DNA of 64,000 bases. It comes from Acidobacteriaceae bacterium (GTDB taxonomy: Bacteria > Acidobacteriota > Terriglobia > Terriglobales > Acidobacteriaceae). Positions 19,038 to 48,718 of the stretch are shown one piece after another (the first letter of the stretch is position 1; every line of letters begins with the position of its first letter). The translations under genes were made by a program, and so were the position numbers. The stretch lies in NCBI GenBank assembly GCA_025355505.1, contig JANXZM010000039.1, positions 1 through 64,000 on the forward strand, given 5' to 3'. The notes below the pieces were generated by a model. The model did no database searches. It worked only from the letters and a program-made list of their open reading frames with translations, and was not told where the DNA came from.

Positions 19038-20150
19038 CTAATCGGCCATCTTGGCGACATGCACCGCGAAGCCCGTCTTGGGCAGTAGCGACGTTAGCTC
19101 GAATACCTTGAAGCCGTGACCGGTAATTTCCGTCTGGCGATAAATGCCGGGCTCGGTTTCGGAGGTTTCGTGGCGGCCCTCCAACTCGTTGACAAACTTC
19201 TGCGCGTCTTTGAGGCTGGATTCTCCGCCTTTGGCACGCGTCACCACGGCCTCGGTGGCATAGGAGCGGGCCAGCTTCGGCCAATACTTTTGCAGCAGTT
19301 GGGTGCTCGCGAAAATGTCAGCCCAGACAATTTCTCCGTTCACGGCAACCACTACGCCCACGGCATGCTTATCGCGCAGTTGGCGGATCACGCTTTCGTA
19401 GCTGCGTTGCATCGGTTCGGCGACAGCATCGACCTGCTTTTGAACTTCTCTATTGTCCATAACGCGGGCGTAAGAACTTTCAGCGTTCACCGCGGGAGCG
19501 GCGCCGGTTACCTCTACGCTCTCCGCCATGGCGTGCTGTGAACTGCGGACGCTGTCCCACACTTGCTGCTGATCTTTCGCGGCCATCGCCTTGCTGCGCA
19601 CGACGGGAGCGGCGAGAAGACCAACCGCACTGCCTCCCCTGTTGCTGAATTCGTATTTACCGTTCGCCGCCACCCAACGTCCGGGCTCGACGCAGAAGAC
19701 ACTGAGGTCGACCGGATCGCTTTCCGCGGGCACGATGCGGTCTTTCCCGATGACGCGGTCCTGCTTGCCGCCAGTTACTATCTCGCCCGCGAGGAGTAAC
19801 AGTGGGCGCTTCGAGTTATTGACCAGGATTAGCCGATTCACCTCCGCATCGCGTACGGGATGCATGATTGCCGGTTCGTTGGGACGGTGACGGATGAGGC
19901 CCCGCGCCTGGCCGGCTTCTGTCACCACAACGTCGCCGCTGCGCAGGCCTTCATCCAGAGTGAGAAACTCTGCCGTCTCATACGACTTACTGGCTGCAAT
20001 GGGAAAGACGGTCAGGTTACCGCTGTGAATGGGGCTGAGCAGCGCATAACCAGACGCTGGTGCTACTTCGCCTGCCTGCAGCAGGCACGGGATGACAACA
20101 TTCGCCACAACTAACAGAGCGATTCCAGTAACCGCGATGGCCAACCGCAT
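19038..20150 (-). CDS. Exported ARPP-1-like (DUF6569) protein
   Basis: The 370-residue protein has a signal peptide (A-V-T-G-I-A-L-L-V-V-A-N-V-V-I-P). The central motif L-V-N-N-S-K-R-P-L-L-L-L-A-G-E-I-V-T-G-G-K-Q-D-R-V-I, followed by V-F-C-V-E-P-G-R-W, fits, from memory, the ARPP-1 domain (DUF6569), named for association with ADP-ribosylglycohydrolases and rhodanese phosphatases. The C-terminal half ends with G-H-G-F-K-V-F-E. Function is unknown. It is divergent from the sigma factor gene across a 217-bp gap. An exported form is unusual for a domain proposed to act on nucleotide signals. Confidence 0.72.
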   Translation of the reverse strand: MRLAIAVTGIALLVVANVVIPCLLQAGEVAPASGYALLSPIHSGNLTVFPIAASKSYETAEFLTLDEGLRSGDVVVTEAGQARGLIRHRPNEPAIMHPVRDAEVNRLILVNNSKRPLLLLAGEIVTGGKQDRVIGKDRIVPAESDPVDLSVFCVEPGRWVAANGKYEFSNRGGSAVGLLAAPVVRSKAMAAKDQQQVWDSVRSSQHAMAESVEVTGAAPAVNAESSYARVMDNREVQKQVDAVAEPMQRSYESVIRQLRDKHAVGVVVAVNGEIVWADIFASTQLLQKYWPKLARSYATEAVVTRAKGGESSLKDAQKFVNELEGRHETSETEPGIYRQTEITGHGFKVFELTSLLPKTGFAVHVAKMAD

Positions 20151-20367
20151 AATTCAACCTCCCGGCAGTAAAGACAGCTGTAAAGACGCCGATCCTCCCG
20201 TGTACGCGCGGTGCTCTGCGTGTGCCGCTGCCCCGGCACGCCAAGATAGAGCGCGCCGGGGGGACTCAATCGCGAGTCTTCCAGGAGTGTCTTTCTCTGC
20301 TCGCTGATCGAAGAACGCACGATTTATTCTTCCTTGCGTCGAAAAAATTGCTAGCATCATCTGGGAC

Positions 20368-21333
20368 ATGCCACGGGGGTACATGCTAAGGTCCGACCAA
20401 TCCGTCCAAGGAGAAGACGCCGCCGCGGCGCTTTACGAGCGCAGCGGGGCGGCGGCGTACGGCGTGGGCGCCGAGCAGTTCTCGGCAATCCTCGATGAAA
20501 TTCTGCGCAAGCATCTTCACCAGATTTCGGCCTCAAGTTCGGCACCCAATTCGGCTCACGCTTCGACCGAACAGAAGGCTGACTTCTGCGCCGGGCTGCG
20601 CCTGGAAGAGCTGGCTCTGGCGCGCGCATGTGCTGCGGGAAACGAGCGGGCGTGGCAGGACTTCATCAGCCGCTACCGGCAGAAGCTGCACGGCATGGCG
20701 ATGCACATTACGCGCGACGGCGCCCACGCCGCGGAGTTGGCCGATTCGCTGTTTGCGGATCTGTATGGCGTGAACGCACGCGATGGAGTACGCAGTTCTA
20801 AGCTCGCGTCCTATACCGGGCGCGGTTCGCTCGAAGGGTGGTTACGCACGGTGATGGCGCAGGAGTTCATCAATCGCTATCGCAAGCAGAAGCGCACGGT
20901 CAGCCTGGAAGAGCAGACGGAAGCGGGTGTGCAGTTTGCGGCGGCGGCTCCTGAACCTGCGTGCACTTCAGACCAACGGCTGGAAGCGGCAACCGACGAG
21001 GCGCTGGCGGAACTTTCGTCAGAGGACCGGTTTACGCTGGCGTCCTATTATCTGGATGGGCGGACGCTGGCCGAAATTGCACGCGCGCTGGGGCTGCATG
21101 AGTCGAGCGTGAGCCGGCGGCTCGATCGGCTCTCGACGGGGCTCCGGAAGCGCATTCTGGCGGGGCTGCGCACACAGGGAATGAGCCCTGCCCAGGCTGC
21201 GGAAGCGCTGGAAACCGACGTGCGGGACCTACAGTTGAATTTGCGCTCGCGTTTGACGCAAGATTCGGGGGCGAAAACGTTCCTTGAGGGAAAGTCCCCA
21301 GCGCCAAGAACCGACGACGGAAGCACGGACTAA
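20368..21333 (+). CDS. RNA polymerase sigma-70 family factor (ECF-like)
   Basis: The 321-residue protein has a sigma-2 region (about 95-170: A-C-A-A-G-N-E-R-A-W-Q-D-F-I-S-R-Y, then G-S-L-E-G-W-L-R-T-V-M-A-Q-E-F-I-N-R-Y-R) and a sigma-4 helix-turn-helix near 225-275 (L-A-E-I-A-R-A-L-G-L-H-E-S-S-V-S-R-R-L). It carries an extra N-terminal stretch of about 85 residues and a C-terminal tail of about 45, making it longer than classic ECF factors. The next gene starts 6 nt after its stop and encodes a zinc-finger membrane protein, the usual anti-sigma arrangement. ATG at 20368. Confidence 0.88.
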   Translation: MPRGYMLRSDQSVQGEDAAAALYERSGAAAYGVGAEQFSAILDEILRKHLHQISASSSAPNSAHASTEQKADFCAGLRLEELALARACAAGNERAWQDFISRYRQKLHGMAMHITRDGAHAAELADSLFADLYGVNARDGVRSSKLASYTGRGSLEGWLRTVMAQEFINRYRKQKRTVSLEEQTEAGVQFAAAAPEPACTSDQRLEAATDEALAELSSEDRFTLASYYLDGRTLAEIARALGLHESSVSRRLDRLSTGLRKRILAGLRTQGMSPAQAAEALETDVRDLQLNLRSRLTQDSGAKTFLEGKSPAPRTDDGSTD

Positions 21334-21339
21334 CGGAAG

Positions 21340-22686
21340 ATGACTGAAGTACCCAAAATCGTGTATGACCGCCTGCGGGCTGCTTCGCTGGAGCGAGCTT
21401 TACCGGAGCGAGCTTTACCGCAGCAAGCAGCGCCCGAGCCAGCGCATCCGGATGCGGATCTGCTGACGGCTTTTGCCGAACAGGCGCTTTCGGCAACCGA
21501 GCGCGAAGACGTGATCGGGCACCTGGCGCTCTGCGGAGACTGCCGCGAGGTGATCGCTCTCGCGCTTCCGGCCGCGGACCCAGTGGGCGCTCCGATTGCC
21601 GCCGATACTGAAGCGGCTCGGGCAATGGCAGTTTCGACGAAGTCTAAGAGAGGCTGGCTGACCTCACAAGCATTTGCCTGGCCAAGTCTGCGCTGGGCCG
21701 CGCTGGCAGCGGGGGTTGCGGTGGCTGCTTCGGTGCTTCTGATGCACCCGGGAAAACTGAATCAGGCAACGCTGCCTTCCGCAACGCCGCAGGTCGCCAC
21801 TACTGTGCCGCCAGCTTCCGACTCGCGGCTCGCGTCGTCGCCGATGGCAAAGTCGTCCGCCGACCTATCGGCAGCCTTGGCTCAAACCGGTGAAGCACGA
21901 TTTAACGCGAAATCGCCGTGGTCCAAGAAAGCTGCCAGTGAACAGGCGGTGACGGCGGCGCGAGCGAAGCAAGGAATATTGCTCGCTGACAATAAGCCTG
22001 ACAATCGGAAAGACGCGGCCACGGCAGACAAGCCGTCGCCAGCGCTGTCCACCGGGGCGGCGGCGCTCGATAAAACAATCGTTGGAAGGCCGAGTGAAGT
22101 CGTTGAAGTTACTGCAGAATCCCCCACAGTGCAGGCAGAGGTCTCTGCCGACGACCGACGGAGGGCGCGGAGCAACGCACCGGCGATCGAAAAGGCAAAG
22201 CCGGCGCGGCGGACCGAAACCGGGCAGATGCAGAACACCATCTCGGCTAACATCGGCGAGCTCCCTCGTCAGGCCAAAAATGAGGTGCCGCTCACGAAAC
22301 AAGAGTCGCCAGCAAGCCAGCCTTTGGCGCGCAATGTCACCTGGGCGATTAAGACGGGCATACTGCAACGGTCACTGGACAGTGGCCAGAGCTGGCAAAA
22401 CGCCTTGCGCGCCGATCATTCATTGCTGTGCTACGCAAGTCACGACGAGGATGTATGGGCGGGCGGACAGGCGGGCAAGCTTTTCCACTCGTCCGACGGC
22501 GGAGTAACTTGGATGCAGGTGCAAGCTTCCGTCAAGGGCCAGGCACTTACCTCCGACGTCACTCACATTGATGTGCGGAGTGATGCGCGCGGCGATGCAC
22601 ACGGCCTGGCGGAGATTGTACTTTCCACTCGCAACAACGAAACCTGGAGCAGCTTGGACGCCGGAAAAACCTGGGAGAAAAAGTGA
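21340..22686 (+). CDS. Anti-sigma-like zinc-finger membrane protein with a YCF48-type C-terminus
   Basis: Residues 35-70 (H-P-D-A-D-L-L and H-L-A-L-C-G-D-C-R) form a zinc-finger anti-sigma motif with H-x3-C-x2-C. A membrane helix lies near 125-140, then a long Ala/Lys/Pro linker. The end (about 340-448) has repeats such as S-L-D-S-G-Q-S-W-Q, S-S-D-G-G-V-T-W and S-L-D-A-G-K-T-W, typical of YCF48/BNR-type propeller blades. The linker contains V-V-E-V-T-A-E-S-P-T-V-Q-A, a motif common in acidobacterial TonB-dependent proteins. A perfect 15-bp tandem repeat is at 21391-21420. The stop overlaps the next gene (GTGA). Confidence 0.8.
   Translation: MTEVPKIVYDRLRAASLERALPERALPQQAAPEPAHPDADLLTAFAEQALSATEREDVIGHLALCGDCREVIALALPAADPVGAPIAADTEAARAMAVSTKSKRGWLTSQAFAWPSLRWAALAAGVAVAASVLLMHPGKLNQATLPSATPQVATTVPPASDSRLASSPMAKSSADLSAALAQTGEARFNAKSPWSKKAASEQAVTAARAKQGILLADNKPDNRKDAATADKPSPALSTGAAALDKTIVGRPSEVVEVTAESPTVQAEVSADDRRRARSNAPAIEKAKPARRTETGQMQNTISANIGELPRQAKNEVPLTKQESPASQPLARNVTWAIKTGILQRSLDSGQSWQNALRADHSLLCYASHDEDVWAGGQAGKLFHSSDGGVTWMQVQASVKGQALTSDVTHIDVRSDARGDAHGLAEIVLSTRNNETWSSLDAGKTWEKK
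21391..21420. repeat. 15-bp tandem repeat in the anti-sigma-like gene
   Basis: GAGCGAGCTTTACCG occurs twice in perfect tandem, coding for E-R-A-L-P twice in frame. Confidence 0.9.
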
Positions 22687-23619
22687 TCCGGTTGTTTCTG
22701 ACGGTCAGCCTTGCAGCTTTTCTCTCGGTCGGCAGTTTCGCACAACCGCCCAAAGAGCCGCTTCGTCCGGAGTGGTGCCGCCAGCTGCCAAGGCCGGAGT
22801 ACGGCAGATTAGAACGCGTTCTGCGCGATGAACCGTGGTTTGAAATCTACCGCATTCGTCCGGGCGTGTTCGCCATCTACGAGCCGAAGCAATTTGAAGA
22901 AGTCATCTCCTATCTGACTTCTTGGTGAGAAACGCGCCCTGCTGTTTGACACGGGTCTGGGCGTGGGAAGGATCAGCGCGACCGTCGCCAGACTCACGCC
23001 TTTGCCGGTGACCGTCATCAACTCGCACACACACTTCGATCACGTTGGTGGCAACGCCGAGTTTCAGGAGATATGGAATCGCGATCTACCCTACACGCGT
23101 CAGAACATGCGCGGGGAAAGCAACGTTTATTCGCGCGATGCGCTTGCCCCCGAGCGTCTGTGCGGAGCGCTGCCCACGGGCACAAGTTCCAAATCGTATT
23201 CGATCCGTCCGTGGAGGAGTACGCACACTTTGCAGGACGGCGAACGGGTTAACCTTGGCGGACGCGAACTGAAAGTGATTTTTACGCCTGGACACACACC
23301 GGATTCCCTGGCCCTTCTCGATCGCAAGAACGGATTGCTTTTTACCGGAGACAGCTTTTATCCCGGCCCGATTTACCTTTTGGTTCCGGAAACCGACTTC
23401 GCCGCCTACGCGCGATCCGTCCAGCGGCTGGCTACGCTGGAAGCTCAAATCAAGTTGCTTCTGCCGGCGCACAACCTGCCGGTTGCCGAGCCGTTTTATT
23501 TGAAGCGCCTCGCCGATGCCGTCCAGCAGGTGCAACACGGCCAGGCTAAAAGCCGGGTAACCGAGGGCCACCGGGAATACTCTTTTGGTGGCTTTTCCCT
23601 TTTACTTTTAGACAGATAG
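22683..23619 (+). pseudogene. Secreted metallo-beta-lactamase fold hydrolase, frameshifted
   Basis: A first frame (GTG at 22683, 81 codons, signal peptide L-F-L-T-V-S-L-A-A-F-L-S-V-G-S-F-A) stops at 22926-22928. A second frame continues the same fold with G-E-K-R-A-L-L-F-D-T-G, N-S-H-T-H-F-D-H-V-G-G-N, P-G-H-T-P-D-S-L and F-T-G-D-S-F to 23619. Skipping one base near 22920 rejoins them as S-Y-L-T-L-G-E-K-R, so one extra nucleotide (probably a T in ACTTCTT) broke the gene. It overlaps the anti-sigma-like gene by 4 nt and was the third gene of the sigma operon. A sequencing error is possible. Confidence 0.8.
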
Positions 23620-23639: not shown

Positions 23640-23806
23640 TGAGGTTACCTCCGCGCATGACCCCGCGGTACCCACTTGCGAGCTTTACATTACGAAGGTG
23701 ACATTTACAGTGGGGCCAAGTGGACATAGGATGAGCACGTGGTTTGGCAGTTCTGGGGGAGGACTGCCGAAGGCGTCCTGAGCGTAACCGCTTAGGGCGT
23801 TTTTTA
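23640..23806 (+). ncRNA. Possible structured small RNA or long 3' leader ending in a terminator
   Basis: This gap of about 225 bp has no coding character. It contains two adjacent hairpins: GGCAGTTCT/AGGACTGCC with a GGGGG loop at about 23743-23767, and the terminator at 23773-23805. It could be the 3' untranslated region of the sigma operon or an independent RNA. I could not match it to a known RNA class by eye. Confidence 0.35.
23773..23805 (+). terminator. Rho-independent terminator
   Basis: GCGTCCTGAGCG pairs with CGCTTAGGGCGT (12 pairs, three of them G-U) across a TAAC tetraloop and is followed directly by T6. It reads on the plus strand and would end the sigma operon or the possible RNA before it. 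Confidence 0.8.
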
Positions 23807-23846
23807 TTGCGCTCAACAATTCGTCGGACAAGAAGGTTTCTCAAGC

Positions 23847-24764: not shown

Positions 24765-25672
24765 TTTTTGCCTCCGCCGGCCGGAGGGGCGGTCGGTTTG
24801 CAATACGCCGTCGTGCCCGGAAAATGGATCAGGCGAAACGAATCGTCCACCTGGAATAAAGATTCCGCATGTCCCAGGAAAAGGTGGCCACCCGGCAAAA
24901 GATTGGAATAAAAATGCTGTACCACACGGCGCTTCGAAGCCAGGTCGAAGTAGATCAGCACATTGCAGCAGAAAATGATGTCCATCCCTTTCTGGAACAA
25001 CATCTTGCTGTCGTCACTGAGGTTCAGGCGGTCAAAGCGGATCTGCGATTTGAGCAGATCGTTGGCCTGAAGTTTCTTGTCGCCCACATCCTTGAAGTAT
25101 TTCCGGCGCAGCAGCTCGCTGGTATTGCGCAGGGCATACTCGCCGTAAATTCCGGCGCGCGCTATTTCGAGCGAATTGTCGTTCAAATCGGTGGCGAGAA
25201 TGTCCCAGGTCCACCCCGCAAGCAGCTTGTCTTTTTGTTCCAGCAGAAACATGGCCAGCGTGTGGGGCTCTTCTCCGGTCGAACAGCCGGCGCACCAGAA
25301 GCGCAGGCGTTTCAGACTGATCAAACCCTTGACCTGCAGGATCTGGGGAAGAATCACGTTGCGCAACGCATCCAACTGGGTGGGGTGGCGAAACATGTAA
25401 GTTTCGCCTATGGTGATTTCGTTCAGCAGCAGGCGCAACTCCGCGTCGCGATTTCCCCACGTCGTGAGGTGCTCCAAATACTCCGGGGGGCTGGCCACGC
25501 CGAGCGCGACCATACGGCGCGCGCAGCGTGAGATCAGAAGATAAAGCTTCTCCTCGGCATGATAGATTCCGGAGATCCGGTAAATCAGATCGCGGATCTT
25601 TAAATATGCCGGATCACCCGGGTTGGTGTCCGGAGTGACGGCAGACTTCGCTTTTGCGATTCCGATGGACAT
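24761..25672 (-). CDS. cheR: Chemotaxis protein methyltransferase CheR
   Basis: The 303-residue protein has the CheR all-alpha N-domain (about 20-95: I-R-D-L-I-Y-R-I-S-G-I-Y, with L-N-E-I-T-I-G-E-T-Y-M-F-R-H-P-T-Q). A SAM-binding domain follows, with W-C-A-G-C-S-T-G-E-E-P-H-T-L-A-M, I-L-A-T-D-L-N-D-N-S-L-E-I-A-R-A-G-I-Y and I-I-F-C-C-N-V-L-I-Y-F. It methylates receptor glutamates using S-adenosylmethionine. Its stop overlaps the start of the HDOD gene, and cheB lies 52 nt upstream. Together with cheB it provides adaptation for the two MCPs in the cluster. Confidence 0.95.
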   Translation of the reverse strand: MSIGIAKAKSAVTPDTNPGDPAYLKIRDLIYRISGIYHAEEKLYLLISRCARRMVALGVASPPEYLEHLTTWGNRDAELRLLLNEITIGETYMFRHPTQLDALRNVILPQILQVKGLISLKRLRFWCAGCSTGEEPHTLAMFLLEQKDKLLAGWTWDILATDLNDNSLEIARAGIYGEYALRNTSELLRRKYFKDVGDKKLQANDLLKSQIRFDRLNLSDDSKMLFQKGMDIIFCCNVLIYFDLASKRRVVQHFYSNLLPGGHLFLGHAESLFQVDDSFRLIHFPGTTAYCKPTAPPAGGGKK

Positions 25673-25724
25673 CGTTTCATCTTTCGCCAGCTAAACTTCC
25701 GGGCGTTGCTCAGTTAATAAATTC

Positions 25725-26801
25725 TCAAATTCTTCCCGGGCGGGCGGCGGCGGCAAAAGCCCTCTGCATCGACACCCTGCGCACCACTTCCGGCGCAATG
25801 CCGCCTAGAGGATAGATGCGATCCGCCAGGCTGGCGGCAACCACGCTTCCGGGCATGCCCCAAACCACCGAGGACGCTTCATCCTGGACGATTACCTCCC
25901 CGCCCGCCTCCCGTATCTCGGCCGACCCGCGAGTGCCATCCGCCCCCATGCCGGTCAGCACCACCGCCAGCACGTTCGCGCCGTAGGTTTGAGCCACCGA
26001 GCGAAACAACACATCCACCGCGGGGCGGCAGGAATTTTCCTGAGGATCATGGTTGATGCCCAGCACGAATTCAGTCCCTCGGCGAGCCACCGTCATGTGC
26101 TGGTCGCCGGGCGCAATCCAGATATGACCGCGCTGCAATTTTTCCCCTTCCTTGCCTTCCCGCACCTCGAGCCGCGCAAGGGTGTTGAGACGCTCGGAGA
26201 GCAGTCGCGTAAACAGCGACGGCATGTGCTGCACGATCACGATGGGCACGGGAAAATCTGCGGGGAACTGCGGGATCAGCAGAGTCAGCGCGTTCGGTCC
26301 ACCGGTTGACGTGCCGATGGCCACCACGTCAATCCGCGCCTGCGGGCGGGCGGAGACCAGCGTGGGCTTCGGCCAGGGCCCCGGCTGCGGCACACGCACC
26401 ACGCACAAGGACTTGATCTTCCGAATCAGTTCTTCCCGCACCCGCTCGCGCGAGACACCCGCTCTCTCATGCGAAGGTTTCGTGACATAGTCGCTGGCTC
26501 CCCGGGCCAACGCCTCCAGGGTTGCCGTCGCACCGCGCTCGGTAAGAGTACTGAACATAATCACCGGTAATTTTGGATACAGTTTGCGAATCTCGACCAG
26601 GGTTTCCAGCCCGTTCATTCCTGGCATTTCAATGTCGAGCGTGACCAGATCCGGCTTCGTCTCTGGAATCCGGGTCAGCGCCTGAATGCCGTTTCCCGCC
26701 GTGCCGGCGACGACGATCTCCGGGTCGGATGCCAGCATTTCACTGAGCACCCTGCGAATGACGGCCGAATCATCGACAACTAGTATGCGAACTGGTTGCA
26801 T
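25725..26801 (-). CDS. cheB: Chemotaxis response regulator / protein-glutamate methylesterase CheB
   Basis: The 358-residue protein has a receiver domain (5-120) with V-V-D-D-S-A-V-I-R-R and the phospho-acceptor Asp in V-T-L-D-I-E-M-P-G-M-N-G. The methylesterase domain (about 165-350) has the catalytic Ser in I-G-T-S-T-G-G-P-N-A-L, V-Q-H-M-P and V-L-T-G-M-G-A-D-G-T-R-G. Phosphorylated CheB removes methyl groups from receptors and deamidates them. Between the MCP genes and cheR on the same strand. ATG at 26801. Confidence 0.96.
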   Translation of the reverse strand: MQPVRILVVDDSAVIRRVLSEMLASDPEIVVAGTAGNGIQALTRIPETKPDLVTLDIEMPGMNGLETLVEIRKLYPKLPVIMFSTLTERGATATLEALARGASDYVTKPSHERAGVSRERVREELIRKIKSLCVVRVPQPGPWPKPTLVSARPQARIDVVAIGTSTGGPNALTLLIPQFPADFPVPIVIVQHMPSLFTRLLSERLNTLARLEVREGKEGEKLQRGHIWIAPGDQHMTVARRGTEFVLGINHDPQENSCRPAVDVLFRSVAQTYGANVLAVVLTGMGADGTRGSAEIREAGGEVIVQDEASSVVWGMPGSVVAASLADRIYPLGGIAPEVVRRVSMQRAFAAAARPGRI

Positions 26802-48453: not shown

Positions 48454-48641
48454 GCTAAAGGCAATACCGCTCGCTTGCCGAACGGGATCAAATACACCGC
48501 AAAAAACGAAAGCGCCCGGACTCGGTTAGAGTCATCGGACGCCCGTTTGAACAGCCCTCCCCCGAAGTCTGCTCACCACCTACCCTACGTTTAGATCGCC
48601 GTGGGGGGAATGGCACGAACGGGCGACTCCGTAGGACTTTC

Positions 48642-48718
<77 letters not shown>

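Follow-up and report, generated by a model that had tools for sequence, protein, structure and literature searches.

Extracytoplasmic function (ECF) sigma factors paired with membrane anti-sigma factors of the zinc-associated (ZAS) type are a known kind of regulatory switch, and to our knowledge the way in which membrane anti-sigma factors read the periplasm is understood in few cases only. ChrR and RsrA are examples of soluble, redox-sensing ZAS anti-sigma factors. The assembly factor Ycf48/HCF136 is a seven-bladed propeller. Here we describe a locus that brings relatives of these proteins together, in a 64,000-nt stretch of the draft genome of a soil acidobacterium (Acidobacteriaceae; contig JANXZM010000039.1, positions 1 to 64,000, forward strand; hereafter the window). 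An ECF-type sigma factor is followed by a membrane-anchored regulator with a Ycf48-like C-terminus and by a gene for a putatively secreted hydrolase of the metallo-beta-lactamase (MBL) fold. We read the locus as an ECF sigma/membrane anti-sigma switch with a periplasmic Asp-box module, to which the MBL enzyme is an accessory, and put the probability of this reading at about 0.65.

The window genome (G000) is a 4.16 Mb acidobacterial draft in 119 contigs. Of its ten named relatives, nine are metagenome-assembled genomes of Acidobacteriaceae, Terriglobia or Terriglobales, and one is a weak match from Chitinophagales. Three genes lie in tandem on its + strand: the sigma factor (321 aa, 20368..21333), the regulator (448 aa, 21340..22686), and a third gene that begins at 22683. 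Six nucleotides (21334-21339) separate the first two, and the regulator stop overlaps the GTG start of the third gene by 4 nt (GTGA, 22683-22686); the open reading frame coordinates bear out the tight packing described in the first-pass annotation of this DNA. The sigma start codon may be at 20368 or 20383, as start codons in relatives can be aligned to either. Two regions of the sigma protein scored over their Pfam cut-offs, Sigma70_r2 at residues 100-177 and r4_2 at residues 210-254, and none of the 24 Pfam families listed was a sigma-70 region 1.1 or region 3 model. This composition, regions 2 and 4 without 1.1 and 3, is that of an ECF sigma factor, and the score against the ECF superfamily model TIGR02937 was 68.8 bits (cut-off 42.9). 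The protein also carries extensions of ~95 aa at the N-terminus and ~60 aa at the C-terminus. The best-scoring model, TIGR03001 (Sig-70_gmx1, Myxococcales family 1), reached 78.2 bits, and because this lies far below its own cut-off of 154.6 we assign the sigma factor to no named subfamily. The group may already figure in the main ECF classification.

The regulator is laid out as a zinc domain (residues ~36-69), a transmembrane segment (~117-135), an unstructured linker (~140-330) and an Asp-box module (~332-448). A zf-HC2 match covers residues 40-69 (26.0 bits, Pfam cut-off 22.2), and residues 36-68 read H-X24-H-X3-C-X2-C, which we take to be the defining motif of ZAS factors. The H...C..C motif was present in all 38 regulator open reading frames read. 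The regulator alignment comprised 34 of the 39 loci collected, leaving out L071, L074 and L078 (uncertain starts, a long N-terminus or a short contig), the fragment L080 and the fusion L097; the ligands H36, H61, C65 and C68 are invariant in all 34 sequences and belong to the ten invariant columns. The regulator scored 21.5 bits against the ChrR family model TIGR02451, for which the cut-off is 124.5. Hydropathy peaks from residue 117 and indicates a single transmembrane segment. Motif, zf-HC2 match and position beside a sigma gene are those of a ZAS-type factor. Judged from their sequences, gene 1 encodes an ECF-type sigma factor and gene 2 a membrane-anchored ZAS-type anti-sigma factor, in agreement with the sigma factor, zinc-finger anti-sigma part and membrane helix first proposed.

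This pairing is well conserved. The regulator was detected in 38 of 61 genomes, and 38 of the 39 loci have a sigma orthologue in the same orientation no more than about 200 nt upstream of it (L074-L076 were scored for the sigma and C-terminal matches, the zinc motif being read separately). The remaining locus, in G019, is truncated at the end of its contig; at the edge of another contig of that genome lie a sigma orthologue and ARPP-1, a neighbouring gene discussed below. In a wider sample of the phylum 95 of 297 genomes gave a match at 1e-8, with most rows covering the zinc part or the blades alone; one match across nearly the whole profile was obtained in 8 of the 297, 7 of them in the window's family. 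Two of the 39 loci come from G012, where L073 (contig 24) is a second, diverged sigma/regulator pair within one genome. In the window genome another frame with a sub-threshold YCF48 match was observed on contig 86 (L081, about 25539-25730); at E 1e-4 neither the sigma factor nor the regulator of the window had a match in the 18-kb stretch around it.

The C-terminus of the regulator (22333..22683, +) had been described as propeller-like and facing the periplasm, and structure prediction had been proposed as a check. In Pfam, matches of this region to YCF48, BNR and sortilin families were all sub-threshold, and the curated Ycf48 cut-offs were not reached (PF14870, 18.2 bits against 27; NF010237, 21 bits against 326). 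A phmmer search of the PDB matched Ycf48 chains at 2e-6, and Asp boxes are found at residues 345, 384 and 438. Structure predictions were built from the window and nine of ten related loci. They gave the 121-residue module two four-stranded blades and one weak third unit. Modelled alone (AlphaFold2, ten sequences), the module had a predicted template modelling score (pTM) of 0.66; by the predicted local distance difference test (pLDDT) the two blades lay mostly at 70-90, and construct residues 1-23, with most of the first Asp box, lay below 50. Except for its first ~23 residues, the C-terminus is accordingly predicted, with fair confidence, to be folded.

Structural comparison of the module model with VIA-align placed Ycf48 (5ojr_C) first, with Z 12.1 and a root-mean-square deviation of 1.7 over 84 aligned residues. 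Rows 2-5 were Ycf48 as well (Z 10.3-10.8), tied with xyloglucan-degrading enzymes (9.8-10.2), to which five of the top 12 rows belong; of all 50 rows, the majority fell at Z 8.7-10. We take the xyloglucan-degrading enzymes to be GH74 members, likewise Asp-box propellers. Because such enzymes score close to Ycf48, the likeness to Ycf48 rests on the phmmer sequence match as much as on the fold. Foldseek with the full-length model returned nothing under 0.001, the best match being Ycf48 at 0.0016. The full-length model predicts no strands before residue 334, where its confidence is low, and the linker of about 190 residues is predicted without strands and without confidence. PMC6805158 gives four to twelve blades as the range of beta-propellers; with two four-stranded blades and three Asp boxes the module falls short of the at least four blades per chain of a complete propeller, and we reject a complete single-chain propeller for having too few blades. 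Within the module W335, W352, W373, G388 and G442 are invariant in 34 of 34 regulators, and its ratio of nonsynonymous to synonymous substitution rates (dN/dS) is below that of the whole regulator in 3 of 3 comparisons. By these predictions the module is real, folded and Ycf48-like, but incomplete. It most likely faces the periplasm. Of the claim made for this region, a folded, Ycf48-like and probably periplasmic part stands, and a full propeller does not.

The reading frame of the third gene shifts between 22917 and 22920. Its first frame (81 aa, 22683..22928, +) has the GTG start and a signal-peptide-like N-terminus, and the remainder lies in another frame (22921..23619, +). The downstream part scored 75.6 bits against Lactamase_B (PF00753, cut-off 22.7) and carries HTHFDH, GHT, GDS and AHN, presumably the metal-ligand motifs, which together place the gene in the MBL superfamily. 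For this downstream part the subclass B3 and B1 beta-lactamase models gave only 44.2 bits against 240 and 24.9 against 200, and among the 25 NCBIfam models shown none reached its cut-off. In the relatives both halves share one frame, and the aligned parts are separated by 3 nt there and by 4 nt in the window; the break was correctly read at first as one extra base. The frameshift was seen in the window genome only. A programmed frameshift is rejected as unlikely, the five linked relatives being single-frame. For the downstream part, dN/dS is 0.06-0.17, close to the 0.085-0.147 found between whole intact MBL pairs (some of the underlying dS values are large or saturated), and private amino-acid changes number 8 in the window copy against 12 in that of G003. 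Since the ratio is near that of intact pairs and private changes are not in excess, the break appears to be either very recent or an assembly error. That it is an error of the draft, with the gene intact in the organism, is a serious contender that falls a little short of an even chance. The same downstream values speak for it. Against it, the short upstream part, which holds the signal peptide, has a somewhat higher dN/dS of 0.18-0.34 (four usable comparisons). G015, G008 and G018, which have the regulators most similar to that of the window, carry no MBL gene next to the pair, so that loss in this lineage is plausible, and a very recent genuine break would look identical.

The MBL gene is a far less regular member of the locus than the pair. 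A match was obtained in 15 of 61 genomes (with only 32% identity in G057), and the gene follows the regulator in six of the 24 genus genomes covered by the search, not all of which are complete: the window genome, G003, G023, G014, G020 and G016. The downstream part in the window is 76-82% identical to its five linked homologues. The claim that the three genes form one unit therefore holds for the sigma/regulator pair and fails for the MBL gene, and a fixed three-gene operon is rejected. A search for the three-gene order in other genomes, as had been suggested, likewise found the pair kept and the third gene absent beside it in the closest relatives. The proposal of a secreted MBL hydrolase is sound as to fold and signal-peptide-like start, and not as to constant membership. 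Five of the six carriers (the window, G003, G023, G014 and G020) share an identical GTGA overlap and each have a signal-peptide-like start, and in the four relatives among them the gene is intact, except that the G014 copy is cut by a contig end.

The sixth carrier, G016, has a different arrangement. A single 626-aa frame (L097, 8034-9914, - strand, on a 742-kb contig) joins the anti-sigma anchor to the MBL enzyme in the order zinc domain, membrane helix, linker and enzyme; the propeller and the signal peptide of the enzyme are both gone, the fusion is in frame and the metal-ligand motifs are retained. Because a normally secreted enzyme sits here, without its signal peptide, on the C-terminal side of the regulator, that side would be periplasmic. 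We take this fusion as the best evidence for a periplasmic C-terminal side and for propeller and enzyme acting on the same side of the membrane.

Traces of the MBL gene were found in genomes that lack it. We compared 15 genus genomes that have no MBL gene next to the regulator. In 12 of them the regulator is soon followed by the conserved sequence found downstream in the window; of the remaining three, G007 has a 19-nt match and G002 and G009 have none. G008, G015 and G018 keep the overlap with an MBL-like start, which in G008 reads through a signal-peptide-like stretch, and in these three the downstream match begins within the final ~26-38 nt of the MBL gene in the window. In G004 and G010 the start overlap alone is kept. 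These relic alignments are short, and the final ~30 nt of the regulator form part of them. When the MBL start was the sole query, only one same-strand match lay near the expected place, in G018, and it was weak (E 0.024). A tree of the sigma factor and regulator N-terminus distributes the MBL carriers over two parts of the genus; its support is modest. The simplest reading of these short traces is that the MBL gene was probably present in the genus ancestor and was then lost repeatedly. On present sequences it is an optional accessory that has been kept, lost or fused to the switch among relatives.

Alternatively, the MBL gene could be an unrelated passenger downstream of the pair, and the fusion a deletion accident. 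It is linked to the regulator in just 6 of 39 loci, the pair persists without it, and eight homologues of 48-56% identity stand at loci whose flanks, followed for up to ~1.5 kb in either direction, held no match to the sigma factor, the regulator or ARPP-1. We nevertheless consider a passenger unlikely, given the same GTGA overlap in 5 genomes, the low dN/dS between linked MBL copies, and an in-frame fusion that keeps the metal-ligand motifs and joins the linker to the enzyme without the propeller.

Upstream of the sigma gene we identified a 26-nt element (20333..20358, +), CTTGCRTC..A..A.TTGCTAGCATC, which ends 9 nt ahead of the first candidate sigma ATG. It was aligned in 17 genus loci, one of them with a shorter spacer, and at <=3 mismatches it occurs in 22 of 24 genus genomes, in all 22 before a sigma orthologue (20 collected loci, plus G005 and G019). 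The two genomes without a match are G010, in which the spacer is one base shorter, and G020, in which the contig ends 76 nt upstream. A reversed-pattern control gave one match in the 24 genomes (G022), and in shuffles of the window no occurrence of the element would be expected. A regulon search at <=3 mismatches returned the sigma site alone in the window genome and one extra site in the genus, in G012, with 3 mismatches and no gene of the locus found nearby. CTTGC-N16-GCATC would suit a candidate ECF promoter, in which case the sigma message would be nearly leaderless; an extended -10 reading of TGCTAGCAT is a possible alternative.

The gene for an ARPP-1 protein (PF20208, 209 bits, cut-off 27) lies divergently upstream (19038..20150, -) and encodes a signal-peptide-like N-terminus. 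The first-pass annotation did not list it, and it is a steadier neighbour of the pair than the MBL gene: in 24 of 38 loci it lies no more than 500 nt away in divergent orientation (L065 being a partial match). ARPP-1 is a possible target of the sigma factor. No promoter motif shared with the sigma gene was seen on the opposite strand by eye in the intergenic alignments, one of which is partly cut. An inverted repeat, CCCCGGCACGC / GCGCGCCGGGG (20231..20261, strand not assigned), lies between the ARPP-1 and sigma genes; read from sequence and alignment, it is visible in most of the 17 aligned genus loci, and it also occurs upstream of the sigma gene in L062, L094 and L099. It may be either an operator or an RNA hairpin.

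In the mechanism that we propose for the switch, the zinc domain of the regulator would sequester the sigma factor in the cytoplasm, and the membrane helix and long unstructured linker would place the small Asp-box module in the periplasm. Altered binding or assembly of the module would then release the sigma factor, through regulated proteolysis or a conformational change, and the freed sigma factor would probably drive transcription of the operon that encodes it and perhaps of divergent ARPP-1 as well. The secreted MBL hydrolase would act as an accessory on the periplasmic side, once fused to the anti-sigma anchor and broken in the window genome. PMC10403576 describes Ycf48 as binding newly made D1 protein, and by analogy the ligand of the module could, among other possibilities, be an unassembled envelope protein.

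Several observations weigh against this proposal. In 14 of 38 loci, among them every one of the four in family f2, no ARPP-1 gene was found next to the pair; in three of the 14 (L078, L098 and L099) a contig ends <=1.2 kb upstream of the sigma gene. The 26-nt element was found almost exclusively before the sigma gene and could be an ordinary promoter or operator. The module was modelled with no more than moderate confidence (mean pLDDT 69.7), and outside the C-terminus the full-length regulator model is of low confidence (mean pLDDT 44.7). It is also conceivable, if improbable, that the zinc domain itself is the sensor, responding to redox like the soluble ZAS factors, with the periplasmic module serving merely as an envelope anchor. 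In favour of this, the zinc ligands are themselves invariant, within a set of ten such columns, and soluble ZAS factors normally respond to oxidative stress according to the review PMC8999054; the constraint on the module, both in its five invariant residues and in its dN/dS, makes a pure anchor role unlikely.

A more specific form of the periplasmic-module switch can be outlined. Fragments of two to five WD40 blades form closed homo-oligomers (PMC6805158). The two- to three-blade fragments of the regulator might similarly close into a ring when 2-3 anti-sigma chains assemble around a periplasmic ligand or unassembled protein, with ring assembly controlling sigma release and the MBL enzyme as an alternative head on the same anchor. 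We regard this split-propeller sensor as speculative and rather improbable. If true, signalling would depend on the assembly of a propeller fragment that acts as the sensor, an unusual principle.

Just downstream of the three genes we observed a candidate new small RNA (23741-23810, +), with a hairpin GCAGUUCU[GGGGG]AGGGCUGC followed by a terminator hairpin, and before it the promoter-like sequences TTTACA (23704-23709) and TAGGAT (23727-23732). The five-G loop is invariant in 30 of 30 aligned copies and differs in a second copy of the window genome (L192) and in some distant copies. The terminator hairpin contains compensated pairs, with two-sided change in 8 of 21 predicted pairs, and a promoter pattern TT[TG]AC[AG]-N15-19-TA...T precedes 23 of the 30 copies. 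A model of the small RNA gave matches in 41 of 200 class genomes, and 33 of these belong to the window's family; the window genome itself has three copies. Matches of 25-31 bits are only putative. Rfam gave no match at its gathering score and one weak match (E 0.14). In some other genera the small RNA lies away from the sigma pair. A further weak model match (19.8 bits) in the window, at 48502-48578 (-) near a tRNA gene at 48645-48718, may be due to chance.

Comparison with described systems places the locus closest to ECF sigma factors with membrane ZAS-type (zf-HC2) anti-sigma factors, which it resembles in regions 2 and 4, a downstream regulator, the zinc motif, one transmembrane segment and a C-terminal extension. 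It differs from them in that its regulator ends in an Asp-box fragment of two to three blades, in place of which a natural variant bears an MBL enzyme. In the literature searched, judged by titles and the starts of abstracts, we found no description of an anti-sigma factor with a Ycf48-like part. The module shares Asp-box blade sequence and fold with Ycf48/HCF136, but it is about one third of the length, is joined to a membrane anti-sigma factor and misses the YCF48 cut-offs. Few blades per chain are also found in the fragment-built oligomeric propellers 6r5y and 6r5z (per their titles), which appear in the VIA-align list together with nvPizza2 and the RSL lectin, presumably of two blades per chain; most of these are designed and one is a lectin, whereas oligomeric closure of the regulator module is only hypothetical. 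The third gene resembles MBL-fold hydrolases (glyoxalase II-like, B3-like and SoxH-related) in its Lactamase_B match and metal-ligand motifs, but here the enzyme is encoded beside, or fused to, an anti-sigma factor. The ECF/ZAS switch itself is of a known kind; what appears to be new is the partial-propeller C-terminus of the anti-sigma factor and the variant with an MBL head. One switch therefore exists in matched natural variants, with the partial propeller alone, with a secreted hydrolase in addition, or with the hydrolase grafted in place of the propeller, and because of these variants the sensor part can be tested directly by domain exchange.

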